A DNA stretch of 64,000 nt from an uncultured SAR86 cluster bacterium (lineage in GTDB: Bacteria; Pseudomonadota; Gammaproteobacteria; Magnimaribacterales; D2472): NCBI GenBank assembly GCA_902528875.1, contig CABZTX010000004.1, positions 1 through 64,000 on the forward strand, written 5' to 3'. Below, one piece after another: positions 29,029-38,320 of the stretch. The translations under genes and the position numbers were made by a program. The notes under the pieces are model-generated. The model worked only from the letters and a program-made list of their open reading frames with translations. It was not told where the DNA came from and searched no databases. Each line of letters opens with the position of its first letter. Position 1 is the stretch's first letter.

Positions 29029-29919
29029 ATGTTATCAAGCATCGCAGAAAAAACATATTGGCTTTCTAGATATATTGAACGTATTGAAAATACCTCAAGA
29101 TTGATAAATGTAAATTCTGACCTTCTTCTCGATATACCTCATGATGAATCAAACGATTTAAAACATCTAATTAAGATTACAGGACATTTTGATGACTTTA
29201 AAAAAAGCAACTCAAAGGAAAATGTTTTTTTCTTTCTTATAGAAGACGAAAAAAATCCGTCTTCAATTAAATATTCAATTGAGATGGCAAAAATGAATTC
29301 AAGATATCTTTTAACAATGCTTCCTAAATCAGCTTGGGAACAATTCAACAATCTCTACTCTGATTTTAATAATGGCGCAGTAAAGAGAAATAGCGAAGAT
29401 TTGTATCAAATAATTAGAAATTCACAAAGATTTTTTGCAATTATTTCTGATGGAATGCAAAGAAATGATGTCTTTAATTTTATAAAGTTGGGAAGATTTA
29501 TTGAAAGAGCCGACATGCTTTCTAGAATTATTGAAGATCAAATTCTTAGAAAAGAAACTCATGTGAATAAATATTATCAAAATTTACAATGGAGTAGTGT
29601 TCTCAGGTCTATCAATGGATATGAATCTTTTAAAACTATAAATAAAGAGAATCTAAATCAAGAAGTAGTACTTGGTTTTATGATAATGGAAAAATTGTTT
29701 CCAAGATCTTTAAAATATTGTGTTGATAAGCTTGTTGAAGTTCAGAAATTTTTACCGCAGTCTACAAATATTAAAAAAATCACAAAATCTTTATTAAGAA
29801 ACCTTGAGAAAAATAATGTATATAAATACGATAAAAAAATATTAAAACATTTAGATAATTTTCAGTTTGGTTTAATTAAGTTAGATAAAGAAATTAATGA
29901 GAGGTTCTTTTCGTATTAA
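29029..29919 (+). CDS. Alpha-E domain protein (COG2307)
   Basis: MLSSIAEKTYWLSRYIERIENTSRLINVN; immediately follows the COG2308 gene. Confidence 0.92.
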   Translation: MLSSIAEKTYWLSRYIERIENTSRLINVNSDLLLDIPHDESNDLKHLIKITGHFDDFKKSNSKENVFFFLIEDEKNPSSIKYSIEMAKMNSRYLLTMLPKSAWEQFNNLYSDFNNGAVKRNSEDLYQIIRNSQRFFAIISDGMQRNDVFNFIKLGRFIERADMLSRIIEDQILRKETHVNKYYQNLQWSSVLRSINGYESFKTINKENLNQEVVLGFMIMEKLFPRSLKYCVDKLVEVQKFLPQSTNIKKITKSLLRNLEKNNVYKYDKKILKHLDNFQFGLIKLDKEINERFFSY

Positions 29920-31193
29920 TTTTTAAAAAAGTTTAAGATGGTTTTAATATCATCAACTGGATTCATTGATTTATCCCCATTTCTTGCGATTAGCTCTATC
30001 TCTTTATTGTCAATATAATTTTTTCCAATAATTATATTTAACGGAATTCCTATAAGTTCTGAATCTTTGATTTTTGAACCATAACCAACATTTCTGTCAT
30101 CAAGAAGAACTGAGTAATTCATTTTTGTGAGCTGATCATACAAACTGATTGCTGCTTCAGTTATTTCTTTTTCTTTGTTATGGCCGATAGAAATAATATT
30201 TATATCAAAAGGAGATATATTATGAGGCCAAATTATTCCTTTTTCATCATAGTTTTGTTCTATAGCAGCAGCAACTAATCTTGAGACACCGATACCATAA
30301 CAGCCCATGTATAATGTTGAAGCTTTGCCATCAGCATTCAAAACGTTCGTTTTCATTGACTCAGCATATAGTTTGCCCAGTTTGAATATATGACCAACTT
30401 CAATGCCTTTTTTTATCTGAATTATACCTTTACCATCTGGTGATGGTTTTCCTTCTAGTGAGTCTATATCTTCTCCCTCGGAAAGCAAAAGCTCTGTATT
30501 TATTGCAAATTCAGAACCATCACTTATAGCAATTGTATCTTCTCCATTCTCAGCCAATACATGGAACTCTTCTGAGCTATCTCCACCAATTGCACCTGAG
30601 TCTGCTTTTGAAATCTTAAAATCAAGTCCAATTCTGTTAAAAATTTTTTTATATGTCTCCCGCATTAAAATATATGTTTCCTGAAGAGATGATTCATCAA
30701 TATTAAAACTATAAGAGTCTTTCATAAGAAATTCTCTTCCTCTCATGATTCCATATCTTGGCCTCACCTCATCCCTGAATTTAGTTTGTATTTGATAAAT
30801 ATTTAAAGGGAGTTGTTTATAGCTTTTTACATTATTTCTAATAATATCTGTAATAACTTCTTCATGTGTTGGACCTAAACAAAAGTCTCTTTCATGCCTA
30901 TCTTTAATTCTCAGTAATTCAAGACCCATTTTGTCCCATCTTTTAGTTTCATCCCATAATTCTTTTGGTTGAACCATAGGCATGAACACCTCTTGAGCAC
31001 CAGATCCATCCATTTCTTCTCTAATAATATTTTCAATTTTTTTTAAGACTTTTAGTCCCAATGGCAACCAAGTATATATACCTGAAGCAGCTTTTCTAAT
31101 CATGCCAGCACGAAGCATTAATTTATGACTAACTATTTCGGCTTCTTGAGGAGCATCCTTAAGTGTTGGTATTAGTAGATTTGAAAATAACAT
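29916..31193 (-). CDS. proS: Prolyl-tRNA synthetase, short form lacking most of the INS editing domain
   Basis: AGMIRKAASGIYTWLPLG, GPTHEEVITD, FRDEVRPRYGIMRGREFLMKDSYSF, MGCYGIGVSRLV; 425 aa. Confidence 0.95.
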   Translation of the reverse strand: MLFSNLLIPTLKDAPQEAEIVSHKLMLRAGMIRKAASGIYTWLPLGLKVLKKIENIIREEMDGSGAQEVFMPMVQPKELWDETKRWDKMGLELLRIKDRHERDFCLGPTHEEVITDIIRNNVKSYKQLPLNIYQIQTKFRDEVRPRYGIMRGREFLMKDSYSFNIDESSLQETYILMRETYKKIFNRIGLDFKISKADSGAIGGDSSEEFHVLAENGEDTIAISDGSEFAINTELLLSEGEDIDSLEGKPSPDGKGIIQIKKGIEVGHIFKLGKLYAESMKTNVLNADGKASTLYMGCYGIGVSRLVAAAIEQNYDEKGIIWPHNISPFDINIISIGHNKEKEITEAAISLYDQLTKMNYSVLLDDRNVGYGSKIKDSELIGIPLNIIIGKNYIDNKEIELIARNGDKSMNPVDDIKTILNFFKN

Positions 31194-31224: not shown

Positions 31225-31515
31225 ATGCCGATTTATGACTACAAATGTTCAATATGCGAATACCAATTAGAATTAATTCATAAAATAAATGATAAACCAA
31301 GTGAAATTTGTCCAAAATGTAATAAGAAATCTCTAAAAAAGTTAGTTTCTGCACCATCTTTTAGATTAAAAGGTGGAGGTTGGTATGAAACCGACTTTAA
31401 AACAGGTAAAAAGAGAAATATTTTGACGAGCGAGCCCTCCAAAGAGCATAAATCAGAAGAAACTTCTAAAACAAACTCCAAGAAAGCCTCTAAACAAGAT
31501 AAAATTAATAAATAG
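31225..31515 (+). CDS. FmdB family zinc-ribbon protein
   Basis: MPIYDYKCSICEYQLELIHKINDKPSEICPKC. Confidence 0.9.
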   Translation: MPIYDYKCSICEYQLELIHKINDKPSEICPKCNKKSLKKLVSAPSFRLKGGGWYETDFKTGKKRNILTSEPSKEHKSEETSKTNSKKASKQDKINK

Positions 31516-31527
31516 ACAGGGAAAAAA

Positions 31528-33294
31528 ATGAAATCTAATTATTGTGGTGAAATTACATCATCAAATTTAAATGAAGAGGTTACTATTTGTGGCTGGATCC
31601 ACAGAAGAAGGGATCATGGTGGAGTAATATTTCTTGATGTAAGAGACATAAAAGGTATATGCCAAGCAGTTGTCAATCCTGATAATCAAAAATCTTTTCA
31701 ATTAGCTGAAACCATAAGAAATGAATTTGTTGTTCAGATCAGTGGAATTGTTCGAAGCAGGCTTGAAGGAACAGTTAACAAAAATATGCATACAGGTGAA
31801 ATTGAAATCGAAGTAAAAAATATAAATATCTTAAGCAAAGCAAATACTCCTGTATTTCCAATAGATGAGTATCAAGAAGTTAATGAAGATGTGAGATTAA
31901 AAAACAGAGTTCTGGATCTCCGAAGGCCTGAAATGAACGAAAGAATTATCACAAGATCTAAAATTACTTCTTTAGTAAGAAATTATTTAGACAAAAATGG
32001 CTTTCATGAGATTGAGACACCAATCTTAACAAAAGCTACACCAGAAGGTGCAAGAGACTACATTCTCCCCAGCAGAGTTCAACCTGGAAGCTTTTATGCT
32101 TTGCCTCAATCTCCTCAACTTTTTAAGCAATTACTCATGATAGGTGGACTTGATAAATATTATCAGATTGCAAGATGTTTTCGAGACGAAGATCTAAGAG
32201 CTGATAGACAGCCTGAATTTACACAAATTGACATTGAGGCATCTTTCATAGATCAAGATGAAATAATTGATATAAGTGAAAAAATGATTAAAAAAATCTT
32301 TAAAGAATTTTGCAATGAAAAACTAGATAAATTTGAGGTAATAGATTGGCATAAGGCAATGCACGAATATGGTTGTGATAAGCCTGACCTTAGAATACCT
32401 TTAAAACTGATAGAGGTTTCTGATCTTGTAAAAGAAGAGGAATTTAAAGTTTTTTCTGAACCAGCAAAAAAATTAAATTCAAGGGTAGTTGCTCTAAAAG
32501 TCCCAAATGGAAATTCTCTATCAAGAGGACAAATAGATGATTACACCAAATTTGTCTCTAAACTCGGAGCGAAGGGTTTGGCATATATAAAAATTAATGA
32601 CATTGATGACTTCGAAAATGGCATCCAGTCTCCAATTTTAAAGTTTTTAAATAATGAAACAGTTAAAAACATTCTTGAAAATTTAGAAGCAGAAACTGGA
32701 GACTTAATATTCTTTGGAGCTGGCTCGTCGACTATTGTAAATTTATCAATGAGCAGCCTTATTAAAAAACTAGGGGAAGATTTAAATTTATATGTAACCA
32801 AGTGGGCACCTTGTTGGATTATAAATTTTCCTATATTTGAATTAAACAATGAAGGTAACCTGACTCCACTTCATCATCCTTTCACATTACCGAAATGCTC
32901 GCAAAAAGAGATTTTGGAAAAACCAGAAGATGCAATTGCTCATGCTTATGATGTTGTATTAAATGGTTACGAAATCGGTGGAGGGTCACTAAGAATATAT
33001 GACAAGAGTATGCAACAGACAATTTTTGATACTTTGAATATTACTAAAGAAGATGCAGAGAATAAATTTGGATTTCTTTTAAGAGCTCTTTCATCCGGTT
33101 GTCCACCACATGGAGGAATTGCTTTTGGGTTAGATAGAATTATTATGTTGGTATCTGACACTACTAATATTAGAGATGTTATAGCATTTCCAAAAACTCA
33201 AAGTGCGACATGTTTGCTAACAGATGCGCCAAGTAAAGTTGAAAAAAAACAACTTGAAGAACTTAAAATAAAAAGCATATTAAAGGAAGAATAA
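31528..33294 (+). CDS. aspS: Aspartyl-tRNA synthetase
   Basis: CGWIHRRRDHGGVIFLDVRD, RCFRDEDLRADRQPEFTQID, GIAFGLDRIIM. Confidence 0.97.
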   Translation: MKSNYCGEITSSNLNEEVTICGWIHRRRDHGGVIFLDVRDIKGICQAVVNPDNQKSFQLAETIRNEFVVQISGIVRSRLEGTVNKNMHTGEIEIEVKNINILSKANTPVFPIDEYQEVNEDVRLKNRVLDLRRPEMNERIITRSKITSLVRNYLDKNGFHEIETPILTKATPEGARDYILPSRVQPGSFYALPQSPQLFKQLLMIGGLDKYYQIARCFRDEDLRADRQPEFTQIDIEASFIDQDEIIDISEKMIKKIFKEFCNEKLDKFEVIDWHKAMHEYGCDKPDLRIPLKLIEVSDLVKEEEFKVFSEPAKKLNSRVVALKVPNGNSLSRGQIDDYTKFVSKLGAKGLAYIKINDIDDFENGIQSPILKFLNNETVKNILENLEAETGDLIFFGAGSSTIVNLSMSSLIKKLGEDLNLYVTKWAPCWIINFPIFELNNEGNLTPLHHPFTLPKCSQKEILEKPEDAIAHAYDVVLNGYEIGGGSLRIYDKSMQQTIFDTLNITKEDAENKFGFLLRALSSGCPPHGGIAFGLDRIIMLVSDTTNIRDVIAFPKTQSATCLLTDAPSKVEKKQLEELKIKSILKEE

Positions 33295-33297
33295 TCT

Positions 33298-34035
33298 ATG
33301 GCTGGTCATTCAAAATGGGCAAATATAAAGCATAGAAAAGCAAGGCAAGATGCCTCCAGAGGGAAAGTTTGGACAAAAGTTATCAGAGAAATCACAGTTG
33401 CAGCCAAAGACGGTCCTGATCCAAACGACAACCCAAGATTAAGATTGGCACTAGAAAAAGCAAATACTGCAAACATGCCTAAAGATAATATTAAAAGAGC
33501 GATTGAAAAAGGTTCAGGTACTGGCGAATCAGGAGCTCTAGAAGAAATTATATTTGAGGGTTATGGTCCTGGTGGGGTTGCAATCTTAGTTGAAACTATG
33601 TCGGACAATAGAAATAGAACAGTTTCAGATGTAAGACATGCCTTCTCAAAGTTTGGTGGTAATCTTGGTACGGATGGATCAGTTTCGTATCTATTTAAAA
33701 AACTTGGAATAATACATATAAGCAAAGACTTTTCTGAAGAGAAACTAATGGAAATAGTCATTGAGTCAGGTGCTGATGATTTTACTGAAGAAGAAGATTT
33801 TTATGAAGTAACTACTGAGTCATCTAACTTCAATAAAGTTTTAGATGTCTTTAAACATTATGAGGTTAATTATATAAATGCTGAGCTAACCCTGAGAGCA
33901 GAAACCTCTATAAATCTTGATGAAGAAATGTCTGAAAAAGTTTTCAATATTATGGAGTTTATGGATAATCTTGATGATGTACAAGAGGTTCATACAAATG
34001 GCGAATTTCCAGAAGACTTTGAGGTTAAAGGTTAA
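33298..34035 (+). CDS. yebC: YebC/PmpR family transcription/translation regulator
   Basis: MAGHSKWANIKHRKARQDASRGKVWTK. Confidence 0.97.
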   Translation: MAGHSKWANIKHRKARQDASRGKVWTKVIREITVAAKDGPDPNDNPRLRLALEKANTANMPKDNIKRAIEKGSGTGESGALEEIIFEGYGPGGVAILVETMSDNRNRTVSDVRHAFSKFGGNLGTDGSVSYLFKKLGIIHISKDFSEEKLMEIVIESGADDFTEEEDFYEVTTESSNFNKVLDVFKHYEVNYINAELTLRAETSINLDEEMSEKVFNIMEFMDNLDDVQEVHTNGEFPEDFEVKG

Positions 34036-34037
34036 TT

Positions 34038-34463
34038 TTGTCAATAAACTCAAGAAATAAAGGTGCTGTATTTGAGAGACAGATAGCTAATGCGTTGATA
34101 GAAGATTTAAATTTAAAAAATCCTGTTAAAAGGATATTAGAGCAAACAAGAACAAAGGAACTGCCAGACCTGATGCTAGGTAGTTGGTGTATTGAATGCA
34201 AGGCTTATGGCACTGGTGCAGAACCTAGACCAGACTGGTGGGAACAGGTTATAGCATCATCCAAGACTAATGGATTAAAACCTGCACTTGTATATAAATT
34301 TAATAATAGACCAATAAAAGTTCGTATTTTAGCTTGCTCAATTAATAGCAGAATAAAGAATGATTTAGTTACAGTTGATCTTTTGTGGCCAGATTTTATT
34401 CAAATTATATTAGAGTTATTTCAAGAGGATATTGAATTACATGAACGAACATATCAAGTGTGA
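34038..34463 (+). CDS. PD-(D/E)XK Holliday-junction-resolvase-like nuclease (phage type), TTG start
   Basis: NKGAVFERQIANALIEDL ... LPDLMLGSWCIECKAYG ... WWEQVIASSKTNGLKPALVYKFNNRPIKVRIL; D..ExK core. Confidence 0.72.
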   Translation: MSINSRNKGAVFERQIANALIEDLNLKNPVKRILEQTRTKELPDLMLGSWCIECKAYGTGAEPRPDWWEQVIASSKTNGLKPALVYKFNNRPIKVRILACSINSRIKNDLVTVDLLWPDFIQIILELFQEDIELHERTYQV

Positions 34464-34851
34464 TGACCTTAAACAAAAAATTTTTATAGAGGATACAGAC
34501 TTTCAAGGAGTTGTATATCACGCAAATTATTTAAAATATTTTGAAAGAGCTAGATCTAATTTTTTATCAAAAGTGGGAGTTTCACAGAAGGAGCTAAGAA
34601 ATCAGGATAAAGCATTCGTAGTAAAAAGCATTGAACTTGATTACCTTAACTCAGCTGGGCTCGGAACTGAAATAATTGTCGAATCTTATGTAGAAAAAAA
34701 ATCAAAAGCAAGAATTGTTTTCTATCAAAAAGTTTTAAATAAAAATGATAATAAAATTCTCGTATCTGGAAGAGTTGAGGTATGTTTTATAAATTTGTCT
34801 ACAAAAAAACCAATAAAATTTCCTGATGAATTATTATCAAATCTCACATAG
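34441..34851 (+). CDS. ybgC: YbgC-type acyl-CoA thioesterase (start refined)
   Basis: IEDTDFQGVVYHANYLKYFERAR hotdog-fold motif; upstream of tolQ. Confidence 0.93.
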   Translation: MNEHIKCDDLKQKIFIEDTDFQGVVYHANYLKYFERARSNFLSKVGVSQKELRNQDKAFVVKSIELDYLNSAGLGTEIIVESYVEKKSKARIVFYQKVLNKNDNKILVSGRVEVCFINLSTKKPIKFPDELLSNLT

Positions 34852-34859
34852 AATAAATC

Positions 34860-35528
34860 ATGGATGAAATATCAGTTTTAAATCTTTTCTTAGAGGCTGG
34901 CTTAGTTGTAAAAATTGTTATGACATTACTTTTTGTTGCGTCAATTCTATCTTGGATAGTTATTATTGAAAGATACAATTTTTTTACAAAAATAAAAAAT
35001 CTTAATAACGAATTTCTTAAAAATTTTTGGAACAATAAAGACCTTACTTTGCTTTATAATGACTTGTCAGACAATAATTTTCTGTATGGCTCTATGAATT
35101 TATTCAAGAATTCTTATGATGAATTCCAAGATATAAATACAAACAAAACAATTTCAGAACTTGATCTTGAAGGTATTAATAGAATAATGAGAGTTTCAAT
35201 TGCATCTGATGAGGAAGAAATGAATAAGCATTTATCATTCCTTGCTAATGTTGGTTCTGTTAGTCCCTATGTTGGTTTGCTTGGAACAGTTTGGGGAATT
35301 ATGACTTCATTTCAAGGATTATCTGATGCAACACAAGCTACTATTAATGCTGTTGCTCCAGGTATTTCTGAAGCCTTAATTGCCACTGGTATGGGTTTAT
35401 TTGCAGCAATTCCTGCAGTCGTGGCATTTAATAAATTTACTTCAGAATCAGAGTCTATTAGTCAAAGTACAATGATTTTTGCAGAAGAACTAGCCAGTAT
35501 TTTTTATAAGCAATCAATTAAAAAATAA
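34860..35528 (+). CDS. tolQ: TolQ proton channel
   Basis: VGSVSPYVGLLGTVWGIMTSF, APGISEALIATGMGLFAAIPAV. Confidence 0.96.
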   Translation: MDEISVLNLFLEAGLVVKIVMTLLFVASILSWIVIIERYNFFTKIKNLNNEFLKNFWNNKDLTLLYNDLSDNNFLYGSMNLFKNSYDEFQDINTNKTISELDLEGINRIMRVSIASDEEEMNKHLSFLANVGSVSPYVGLLGTVWGIMTSFQGLSDATQATINAVAPGISEALIATGMGLFAAIPAVVAFNKFTSESESISQSTMIFAEELASIFYKQSIKK

Positions 35529-35950
35529 TGATTTATAGGCTTGCAAAAAAGAAAAATCTTAAAGCTGAAATAAATGTAGTTCCATACATAGATGTGATGC
35601 TTGTTCTTTTGATTATATTTATGGTTTTATCACCTCTTTTAATTCAAGGAATTGAAGTTAATTTACCTCAAACAGACACAACAAAAATGTCAGTACAAAA
35701 TGAACCGTTAGTAATATCGATTGATAAAAATGGAAATTATTTTATTAATGTTGGGGATGAATCGCTTTCAATAGACTTAGAAGAGCTAAAAAGAAAATCA
35801 AAAGTAATCTATGATGCAAATCCAGAAGTAGAAGTAGTTTTTCAAAATGATAAAAATGTAGCATTTGAGTCTGTAGCAAAAGCAATGGCATCAATTCAGA
35901 GTATTGGAATTTCTAATATAGGAATCGTAACTTCTGGTTATGAGAATTAA
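35528..35950 (+). CDS. tolR: TolR
   Basis: AEINVVPYIDVMLVLLIIFMVLSPLL. Confidence 0.95.
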   Translation: MIYRLAKKKNLKAEINVVPYIDVMLVLLIIFMVLSPLLIQGIEVNLPQTDTTKMSVQNEPLVISIDKNGNYFINVGDESLSIDLEELKRKSKVIYDANPEVEVVFQNDKNVAFESVAKAMASIQSIGISNIGIVTSGYEN

Positions 35951-36566
35951 TAAAACTTATTTTGAAGCCTCTTTTGTCTCATTTTTAATACATGCCTTAA
36001 TTCTTTTATATCTTCTTGGTTTCTTTTATTCTGAGTCTAAACAGACATCAATATTAACCAAGCCGATAAACGTAAGTTTGATTTATAAAGATCAATCCGG
36101 AGTAAAAAAAAATAAATCTATCAACAAGATTATCGAACCACAAAAAATTGAGTTATCAGAGGCAATTAACAAAAATGAGACTTCTACAGAATCTATCTCA
36201 TTCGATTCGCTTTTAACCTCAATTGATTTTGATGAGCTTTTAAAAGAAGACAACCTAATCTCTGAGAGAATAGAACAAAATGAAATTGATTTATACTCTT
36301 CCTTGATAGTAAAAAATATCGAAGAAGCTTGGCGAAAACCAATTAATATTCAAGAGGGATTAATCTGTAATTTAAGACTTACAATTAACAAAAGTGGCAG
36401 AGTTCTTAACGTTAACCTTATAAAAAGTAGTGGGAACATAAGGTTTGATAATTCTGCGATTAAAGCAGTTCAAAGAGTTGAGACTTTTAGTTTCTATAAT
36501 CAAATTTCAGCTAGTCTTTTTGCATCTAACTTTAGAACAGTAATTCTAAAATTCAATCCATCATGA
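35940..36566 (+). CDS. tolA: TolA-like protein (short)
   Basis: N-terminal TM; C-terminal TonB/TolA-like domain (VKNIEEAWRKP, RLTINKSGRVLNVNLIKSSGN..FDNSAIKAV); tolR-tolB context. Confidence 0.82.
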   Translation: MRINKTYFEASFVSFLIHALILLYLLGFFYSESKQTSILTKPINVSLIYKDQSGVKKNKSINKIIEPQKIELSEAINKNETSTESISFDSLLTSIDFDELLKEDNLISERIEQNEIDLYSSLIVKNIEEAWRKPINIQEGLICNLRLTINKSGRVLNVNLIKSSGNIRFDNSAIKAVQRVETFSFYNQISASLFASNFRTVILKFNPS

Positions 36567-37819
36567 ATAGAATAATTTTTTTACTAATATTTTCTAATAT
36601 CTTAATTTCTGAACTTATCTTAGAGGTTACTCAGGGTACAGATGATCCTTATAGGGTCGCATTAGTAACGTTTAATGGAGACGCCAAAATAGTTAATGAG
36701 ATAAATTCAGTTATTAGAAATAACCTTATGAGATCTGGCGAGTTTAATATTTTTGAAGATGATGATTTGTTATCAGTACCTAAAAATGAAAATGAAATAA
36801 TTTATAACGATTTTAAGATTCTTAATATTGATTATCTTGTTTTTGGAGAGGTTTTTATTGATGGAAATAGCAATTCAGTAGAATATAAAGTTTTTGATAT
36901 TAAAAGGGGTACTCAGATAAGAAACTCAACTGTTTTTGGAATTCCAAATAGAAACAGACAATTAGCACATTATGTTGCCGATGGTATTTATGAAGAAATA
37001 ACTGGTATAAAGGGAATATCAGCTACAAAAATTTTATACGTTACTGAGAAAGATAATTTCAATCTAGTTATTTCAGATGCTGATGGAAAGAATGAACAAC
37101 TATTGCTTTCAAGCTCTGAGCCAATAATTTCACCAACATGGTCTCCTGATTCGAAAAAGGTAGCATATGTATCATTCGAAACTGGTATGGCTAAAGTGTA
37201 TATTCAAGATATAGCTTCTGGTGAAAGGGAGGTCGTGATAGAAAACTCAAAGCAAATAAGTTCACCAGCATGGTCTCCAGATGGAAAATTTTTATCTTTA
37301 ACAATGTATCAGGATGGAAATGCTGAAATTTATATATTGAACTTAAAAAATAAAAACCTTACTAGATTAACAAATCATTATAGTATTGATACTGAATCAG
37401 TATGGTCACCAAGAGGAACCAAAATTATGTTTACTTCAGGTCGATCAGGATCTCCTCAATTATATGAAATAAATTTAAGAAAATTTAATTCAAAACCAAA
37501 GAGGATTACTTTTGATGGAAATTACAATGCTAAAGGATCTTATTTACCTAATAATGAAGGGATAGTTTTTGTGCATAGAAGCAAAGATCAGTTTCAGATT
37601 GCACTTAAATACTTTAATGAAAATTTTGTTAGAACTTTAACAAACTCAATGATGGATGAATCACCTAGTATTTCTCCTAACGGAAATGTTATAGTTTATG
37701 CAGTAAAAATTAATGGTACTGGGATGCTCGCTGGTGTTACTTTAAGTGGAGCAAAATTTATTTTACCTGCTTCTGAAGGTGCTGTTCGTGAACCATCTTG
37801 GTCAAGTTTTTTGAGATAA
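36563..37819 (+). CDS. tolB: TolB beta-propeller
   Basis: SPTWSPDSKKVAYVSFE, SPAWSPDGKFLSL repeats. Confidence 0.95.
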   Translation: MNRIIFLLIFSNILISELILEVTQGTDDPYRVALVTFNGDAKIVNEINSVIRNNLMRSGEFNIFEDDDLLSVPKNENEIIYNDFKILNIDYLVFGEVFIDGNSNSVEYKVFDIKRGTQIRNSTVFGIPNRNRQLAHYVADGIYEEITGIKGISATKILYVTEKDNFNLVISDADGKNEQLLLSSSEPIISPTWSPDSKKVAYVSFETGMAKVYIQDIASGEREVVIENSKQISSPAWSPDGKFLSLTMYQDGNAEIYILNLKNKNLTRLTNHYSIDTESVWSPRGTKIMFTSGRSGSPQLYEINLRKFNSKPKRITFDGNYNAKGSYLPNNEGIVFVHRSKDQFQIALKYFNENFVRTLTNSMMDESPSISPNGNVIVYAVKINGTGMLAGVTLSGAKFILPASEGAVREPSWSSFLR

Positions 37820-37834
37820 TTTAAGGAGGAATTT

Positions 37835-38320
37835 ATGCAGTATACGAGAATTAATTTTCATTTTTTATTTTTTTTAATTTTTTTAAGCTCATGTTCAAGT
37901 ATGAATGTTTCTCAGGAAAAAGTTTATCCTGATGATGTGAGAACTGTTAAAGCATCATTGAGCAGTTCTGAGGTTAGTTATGATAGTGAGGCAATTTTTG
38001 CTAATGCAATAATTTATTTTGAGTTTGATAAATCAAACCTTACAACTAAATCTCTTCAAACATTGAAAAGCATTGTTAATGCATTAGAAGAAAATTCTGC
38101 AATTGGATTAACTTTATCTGGTCATGCTGATGAAAGAGGCACTCGTGAATATAATTTAGCTTTAGGTCAAAGGCGTGCAGAAACCGTAGCTGAATACTTA
38201 ATACTAAATGGTATTAATAAGAGCAGAATCACTGTAAAAAGCTATGGTGAAGAAATGCCTGCAATGTTGGGTCAAAATGAGAAAAGTTATGCAAAGAATA
38301 GAAGAGTTGAGATAAATTAA
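37835..38320 (+). CDS. pal: Peptidoglycan-associated lipoprotein Pal
   Basis: Lipobox LSSCSS; OmpA-like LSGHADERGTREYNLALGQRRAETV. Confidence 0.95.
   Translation: MQYTRINFHFLFFLIFLSSCSSMNVSQEKVYPDDVRTVKASLSSSEVSYDSEAIFANAIIYFEFDKSNLTTKSLQTLKSIVNALEENSAIGLTLSGHADERGTREYNLALGQRRAETVAEYLILNGINKSRITVKSYGEEMPAMLGQNEKSYAKNRRVEIN

Follow-up and report, generated by a model that had tools for sequence, protein, structure and literature searches.

A phage-type PD-(D/E)XK nuclease at the ruvCAB position of SAR86 bacteria as a probable replacement for RuvC

Introduction

What resolves Holliday junctions in a bacterium whose ruvCAB position is filled by another gene? Bacteria mainly rely on RuvABC for this step, and the gene order aspS-yebC-ruvC-ruvA-ruvB-ybgC-tolQRAB-pal was verified in many loci read from diverse Gammaproteobacteria; in E. 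coli yebC and ruvC are adjacent and ruvAB lies further along. The window (the whole 64,000-nucleotide stretch of DNA analysed here) comes from SAR86, a lineage of the Gammaproteobacteria, and carries one short gene between yebC and ybgC. A first-pass annotation had cited the order from aspS to tolQ for Pseudomonas-like gammaproteobacteria and proposed that a phage-like nuclease had replaced the chromosomal resolvase. The order holds across diverse Gammaproteobacteria, the organism here being SAR86 and not Pseudomonas-like. We found no paper naming both SAR86 and ruvC, and reports elsewhere are possible.

The nuclease gene and its locus

The features of the window that bear on the question are listed below.

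31225..31515, + strand: fmdB-like zinc-ribbon protein, a conserved neighbour (Pfam Zn_ribbon_8, 8.4e-14; order conserved)
31528..33294, + strand: aspS, conserved upstream (NCBIfam NF001750, 6.2e-251)
33298..34035, + strand: yebC, marker upstream of the ruvC slot (NCBIfam NF001030, 3.7e-100)
34038..34463, + strand: PD-(D/E)XK nuclease, Pfam PDDEXK_15, proposed chromosomal Holliday-junction resolvase (TTG start, 141 aa, E13/D44/E53/K55)
34441..34851, + strand: ybgC, marker downstream of the slot (TIGR00051 passes its cut-off; TIGR02799, at 1.5e-36, does not pass its own)
34860..38320, + strand: tolQ-tolR-tolA-tolB-pal, conserved downstream block (ORFs; kept across the order)

The gene order in the window is proS, fmdB, aspS, yebC, nuclease, ybgC, tolQRAB and pal. 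The tolQRAB-pal block is also found class-wide, there with ruvCAB occupying the slot. The TTG of the nuclease gene lies 2 nt past the yebC stop, and its 3' end overlaps the start of ybgC, which has an ATG at 34441 whereas the ORF call begins at TTG 34432. Coordinates and neighbours thus agree with the earlier placement of a TTG-start, 141-aa ORF in the ruvCAB slot; the sequence motif quoted for the protein is exact, and ruvA and ruvB are indeed gone from the locus, where the nuclease is followed by ybgC. The ORF at 34038-34463 is a genuine gene, with homologues in the genus and the order and a dN/dS of about 0.05. It is under strong purifying selection, with a median dN/dS of 0.047 across the 266 pairs within the genus that have finite dS, an approximate value because synonymous sites are near saturation. 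No methylase partner gene adjoins the nuclease among the ORFs of the window.

Absence of RuvABC and distribution of the nuclease

Pfam RuvC (PF02075) is present in 347/369 genomes of the class sample and in none of 151 genomes of the SAR86 order, including 40 good ones (at least 90% complete); nor was it found in the window's own genome, which is 74% complete. RuvA_N gave no match over cut-off in 61 genomes of the order, and its RuvB_N matches are all weak, at 31.4 bits or less. A relic RuvB behind those matches was considered and rejected, given their weakness and the identity of the two loci inspected, which are DnaX and ClpX. A tblastn search with E. coli RuvA, RuvB and RuvC returned nothing convincing from G038, a single-contig genome from a different genus within the window's family. 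RuvABC therefore appears to be missing throughout SAR86. The first-pass annotation had spoken of loss or relocation of the branch-migration motor; of these, loss looks the likelier.

The nuclease is found in 138 of the 151 genomes of the order, in 22/22 genera and in 38 of the 40 good genomes (29/34 genomes in the window's genus), and is single-copy in all matching genomes but one. It directly follows yebC in all 19 loci examined, which span four families, and ybgC comes next in 16 of them. In SAR86, then, the ancestral gene is absent, a substitute is present and the two distributions are complementary, which is the pattern of non-orthologous displacement of RuvABC. The replacement goes back to the ancestor of the entire order, and the earlier proposal of such a replacement gains support from the search for an intact ruvABC elsewhere, which met with none.

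In loci L046, L049 and L050 of SAR86 family f4, ybgC was not detected behind the nuclease, and in L049 no tol gene was detected downstream either.

Family, active site and predicted fold

The window protein matches the Pfam family PDDEXK_15 (PF24608, "phage putative PDDEXK endonuclease") at 39.4 bits (cut-off 27), and a member from family f4 matches it at 33.6 bits. It also matches PHROG 244 (E 5.7e-13), whose "RusA-like" label is an annotation, a Pfam RusA match being absent. PDDEXK_15 is the sole Pfam match at E<=1 and NCBIfam gives none; models for RecU and RusA are unmatched, as are archaeal-type Hjc (PF01870 / NF040854; Pfam, NCBIfam) and Pfam RuvC (PF02075). In an order-wide alignment of 24 sequences E13 (in KGxxFER), D44 (in PDL), and E53 and K55 (in ECK) are invariant, and the motifs WWxQV and PxLxYKF likewise. 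The window protein thus has the catalytic E...D...ExK set of PD-(D/E)XK nucleases, and the annotation was right to call it a phage-like enzyme of this superfamily that is not RuvC-like. RuvC has an RNase H-like fold, unrelated to PD-(D/E)XK.

The AlphaFold model (pLDDT 82, pTM 0.80) has the alpha/beta, restriction-endonuclease-like fold of PD-(D/E)XK enzymes, with a mixed order of helices and strands. A structural check had been suggested as a way to expose an unrelated fold, and the fold proved not to be unrelated: in Foldseek the closest PDB structures are the archaeal Hjc/Hje resolvases 2wcw, 1ob8, 1gef and 2eo0 (E about 2e-3 to 1e-2), with a probability of 0.94-1.00 for most of the top Hjc/Hje matches and TM about 0.4-0.5. 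The restriction enzyme 3ndh is also among the matches (E 6e-3), and some other PD-(D/E)XK enzymes approach the Hjc range. In a viral structure library the best matches are phage proteins with TM 0.76-0.78; further down, at weaker scores, several carry the name Holliday junction resolvase. PDB sequence searches with the window protein or the family profile returned nothing credible.

Comparison with known resolvases

Membership of PDDEXK_15 above the Pfam cut-off and a common E-D-ExK pattern tie the SAR86 protein to the phage proteins of PDDEXK_15 and PHROG 244, whose homologues are carried by marine Roseobacter phages and by a phage-like island of SAR86. In contrast to those phage members, the SAR86 nuclease is a fixed chromosomal gene, kept in the ruvC slot across the whole order. 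The archaeal Hjc/Hje enzymes (PF01870) are also small PD-(D/E)XK nucleases and give the best folds for the model, but there is no membership at the sequence level, and identity is about 13-18% in most structural alignments.

Cleavage of four-way junctions has been demonstrated for Hjc_15-6 of Thermus phage Tth15-6 (PDB 7bgs, 7bnx), with catalytic residues Glu10, Asp40, Glu53 and Lys55 (PMC8805305). These correspond to E13, D44, E53 and K55 in SAR86, although the SAR86 protein is too distant for a sequence match and carries the invariant WWxQV.

The likeness to E. coli RuvABC is one of genomic position, from yebC to ybgC-tolQ in most loci of the class that were read; unlike RuvC, the SAR86 nuclease has no RuvA or RuvB partner. 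RecU is another PD-(D/E)XK enzyme. In Firmicutes it is an established stand-in for RuvC, occurs with RuvAB and is encoded away from ruvAB (PMC3403352), whereas SAR86 has lost RuvAB as well and has its substitute in the ruvC slot.

A second replacement in family f42

A class-wide profile search recovered a distant homologue in two genomes of about 1.1 Mb, G205 and G451 of family f42, which are also RuvC-less. The f42 nuclease is 104 aa long and lies between yebC and ybgC. Within the same order as f42, RuvC is found in 0/12 genomes of f42 and 8/8 of the sister families, and the f42-type nuclease in 9/12 and 0/8, respectively. The protein lacks the WWxQV motif, reaches Pfam Hjc weakly (18.5-19.9 bits, cut-off 21.1) and matches Hjc_15-6 by sequence (E 2e-4). 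The absence of RuvA and RuvB in f42 was read from the slot and from about two thirds of one genome (G205), in which RecG is present.

When phage homologues are included in the tree, the SAR86 and f42 chromosomal sets group with different phage lineages; forcing the two together is rejected (p-AU 0.002, on a tree with long branches), and f42 and SAR86 are not neighbours in a species-marker tree. One shared capture by SAR86 and f42 is rejected on the AU test and on the retention of RuvC in the sister families of f42. We conclude that f42 is an independent repeat of RuvC displacement, partly checked there for RuvA and RuvB. The best reading of the two lineages is that phage Hjc-like resolvases twice, and independently, took the place of RuvABC at its own locus. 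This second swap is beyond the first-pass annotation, as are the order-wide ancestry of the first and the loss of RecG described below.

Genome G239 is RuvC-less and has kept yebC, but its slot (L238) is rearranged or broken up. It was considered as a third replacement and set aside, the broken slot holding no comparable nuclease.

Phage relatives and source

Roseobacter phages CRP-821 and CRP-823 encode a SAR86-type and an f42-type nuclease, respectively, at equivalent positions. Both genes adjoin those for a PD-(D/E)XK exonuclease (RecE/exonuclease VIII-like in CRP-821), an SSB and a primase-helicase. Among the related Roseobacter phages of loci L138, L140 and L275, equivalent positions are occupied by one or the other of two distinct PD-(D/E)XK nuclease types. 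This swapping among related phages suggests that the SAR86 and f42 types are functionally equivalent.

A phage-like island in SAR86 genome G056 (L040:3485-8081) houses the genome's second PDDEXK_15 nuclease, a diverged copy, next to genes for a RecE-like exonuclease and a primase/helicase, with a 199-aa protein of no family match where the Roseobacter phages have SSB. Together with the Roseobacter phage nucleases, this island makes phages infecting these bacteria a plausible source of the nuclease; we infer the direction of transfer.

RecG and the remaining recombination genes

Within the window's family, genera g5 and g6 encode full-length RecG, as do SAR86 families f2, f3 and f4. Strong RecG matches in g2, g3, g4 and the window's genus are confined to Mfd-length frames of about 1,000-1,100 aa, and the window genome's own strong match sits in a contig-end fragment. 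The window's clade (genera g1-g4) thus appears to be without RecG on top of the order-wide loss of RuvABC. In E. coli, double-strand-break repair needs branch migration by RuvAB or RecG, and loss of RecG in a cell without RuvAB is hard to reconcile with those genetics (PMC4125073).

By tblastn, G038 has RecA, RecF, RecO, RecR, UvrD, PriA, XerC, XerD, FtsK and YqgF. RecN gave a weak partial match only, and the RecB query matches only inside the UvrD gene. No convincing match was obtained in this genome for RadA, RarA, RecQ, RecJ, RecC, RecD or RusA, or for RecG beyond an Mfd one; for RadA, RarA and RecQ, absence refers to tblastn in this single genome. YqgF, a RuvC-fold protein, is shared with bacteria that do have RuvC, E. 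coli among them.

Proposed function and alternatives

Fold, active site and context point to a resolvase function, and we put at about three in four the probability that the 141-aa protein came from a phage, is an endonuclease like archaeal Hjc and, by a predicted junction-cleaving activity, took over RuvC's job as chromosomal resolvase in the SAR86 ancestor. On this model, which draws on established knowledge of Hjc, RecU and RecG, the nuclease gene would have entered the locus just after yebC, where ruvC had been, with loss of ruvC, ruvA and ruvB. RecFOR would load RecA to form joint molecules; a dimer of the nuclease, as in Hjc, would bind the four-way junction and make paired nicks through a metal-dependent E13/D44/E53/K55 active site, and ligase would seal the products. 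RecG may move the junction where it survives. In the RecG-less clade of the window, branch migration would have to come from RecA itself, from spontaneous migration or from UvrD.

Several points count against this model: the protein itself matches neither Pfam Hjc nor, credibly, any PDB chain by sequence, its Foldseek scores to Hjc are approached by some other PD-(D/E)XK enzymes, YqgF is present, the RecG loss fits poorly with E. coli genetics, and junction selectivity in phage resolvases is often lower than in RuvC. The protein could instead be a general debranching nuclease acting on flaps, forks and Y-structures, with intermediates mostly cleared by replication or by RecA and UvrD. The replication and recombination modules that surround its phage relatives would suit such an enzyme. 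It is also favoured by the loss of RecG in the window's clade which, with no RadA, RecQ or RecBCD in one relative (G038), suggests a reduced recombination programme, and by the typically greater promiscuity of phage resolvases compared with those of bacteria (PMC3864405). We nevertheless consider a debranching role unlikely, as the gene sits at the exact ruvC position in two independent lineages that lost RuvC and the nearest solved folds are four-way-junction enzymes.

Less probable again, and in our judgement very unlikely, is a restriction, repair or defence endonuclease that has nothing to do with junctions and occupies the slot by chance, leaving resolution to RuvX/YqgF or to nothing. PD-(D/E)XK is a very broad fold, which accords with the 3ndh match, and YqgF is there to be invoked in G038. 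However, PADLOC gave no match for the window protein and no methylase gene lies alongside; the gene is retained almost universally across the order, nearly always in single copy, the slot was filled likewise and independently in f42, and YqgF coexists with RuvC in other bacteria.

That RuvABC is present and was missed, in incomplete genomes or as genes too divergent, is hardly credible: the window's genome is incomplete, and elsewhere in the class the absence of RuvC is mostly due to assembly gaps, yebC being missing as well, but in SAR86 and f42 assembly incompleteness is rejected as the reason, with yebC and the slot present, and in SAR86 the slot is sequenced and filled, RuvC is missing even from the good genomes and the single-contig genome yields none of the three genes.

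Returning to the resolvase reading, the evidence tips slightly towards a wider picture, in which the ruvCAB locus was twice emptied and refilled by different phage Hjc-like nucleases in genome-reduced Gammaproteobacteria, and the window's clade recombines via RecFOR and RecA, has the 141-aa protein as its sole resolvase and keeps no dedicated branch-migration motor (RuvAB, RecG, RadA, RarA and RecQ being undetected). If true, a single small phage gene can replace a core resolution step in an abundant ocean lineage, and the two independent captures make the replacement idea directly testable. The captures also matter for our view of recombination in streamlined bacteria, and of phage recombination modules as suppliers of housekeeping genes.

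A further observation concerns proS, at the upstream end of the locus. E. coli-type prolyl-tRNA synthetase is longer than the enzyme encoded here and has an inserted editing domain. In the window (29916-31193, - strand) the Pfam scan gave no editing (YbaK-like) domain, and the synthetase is only 425 aa long.
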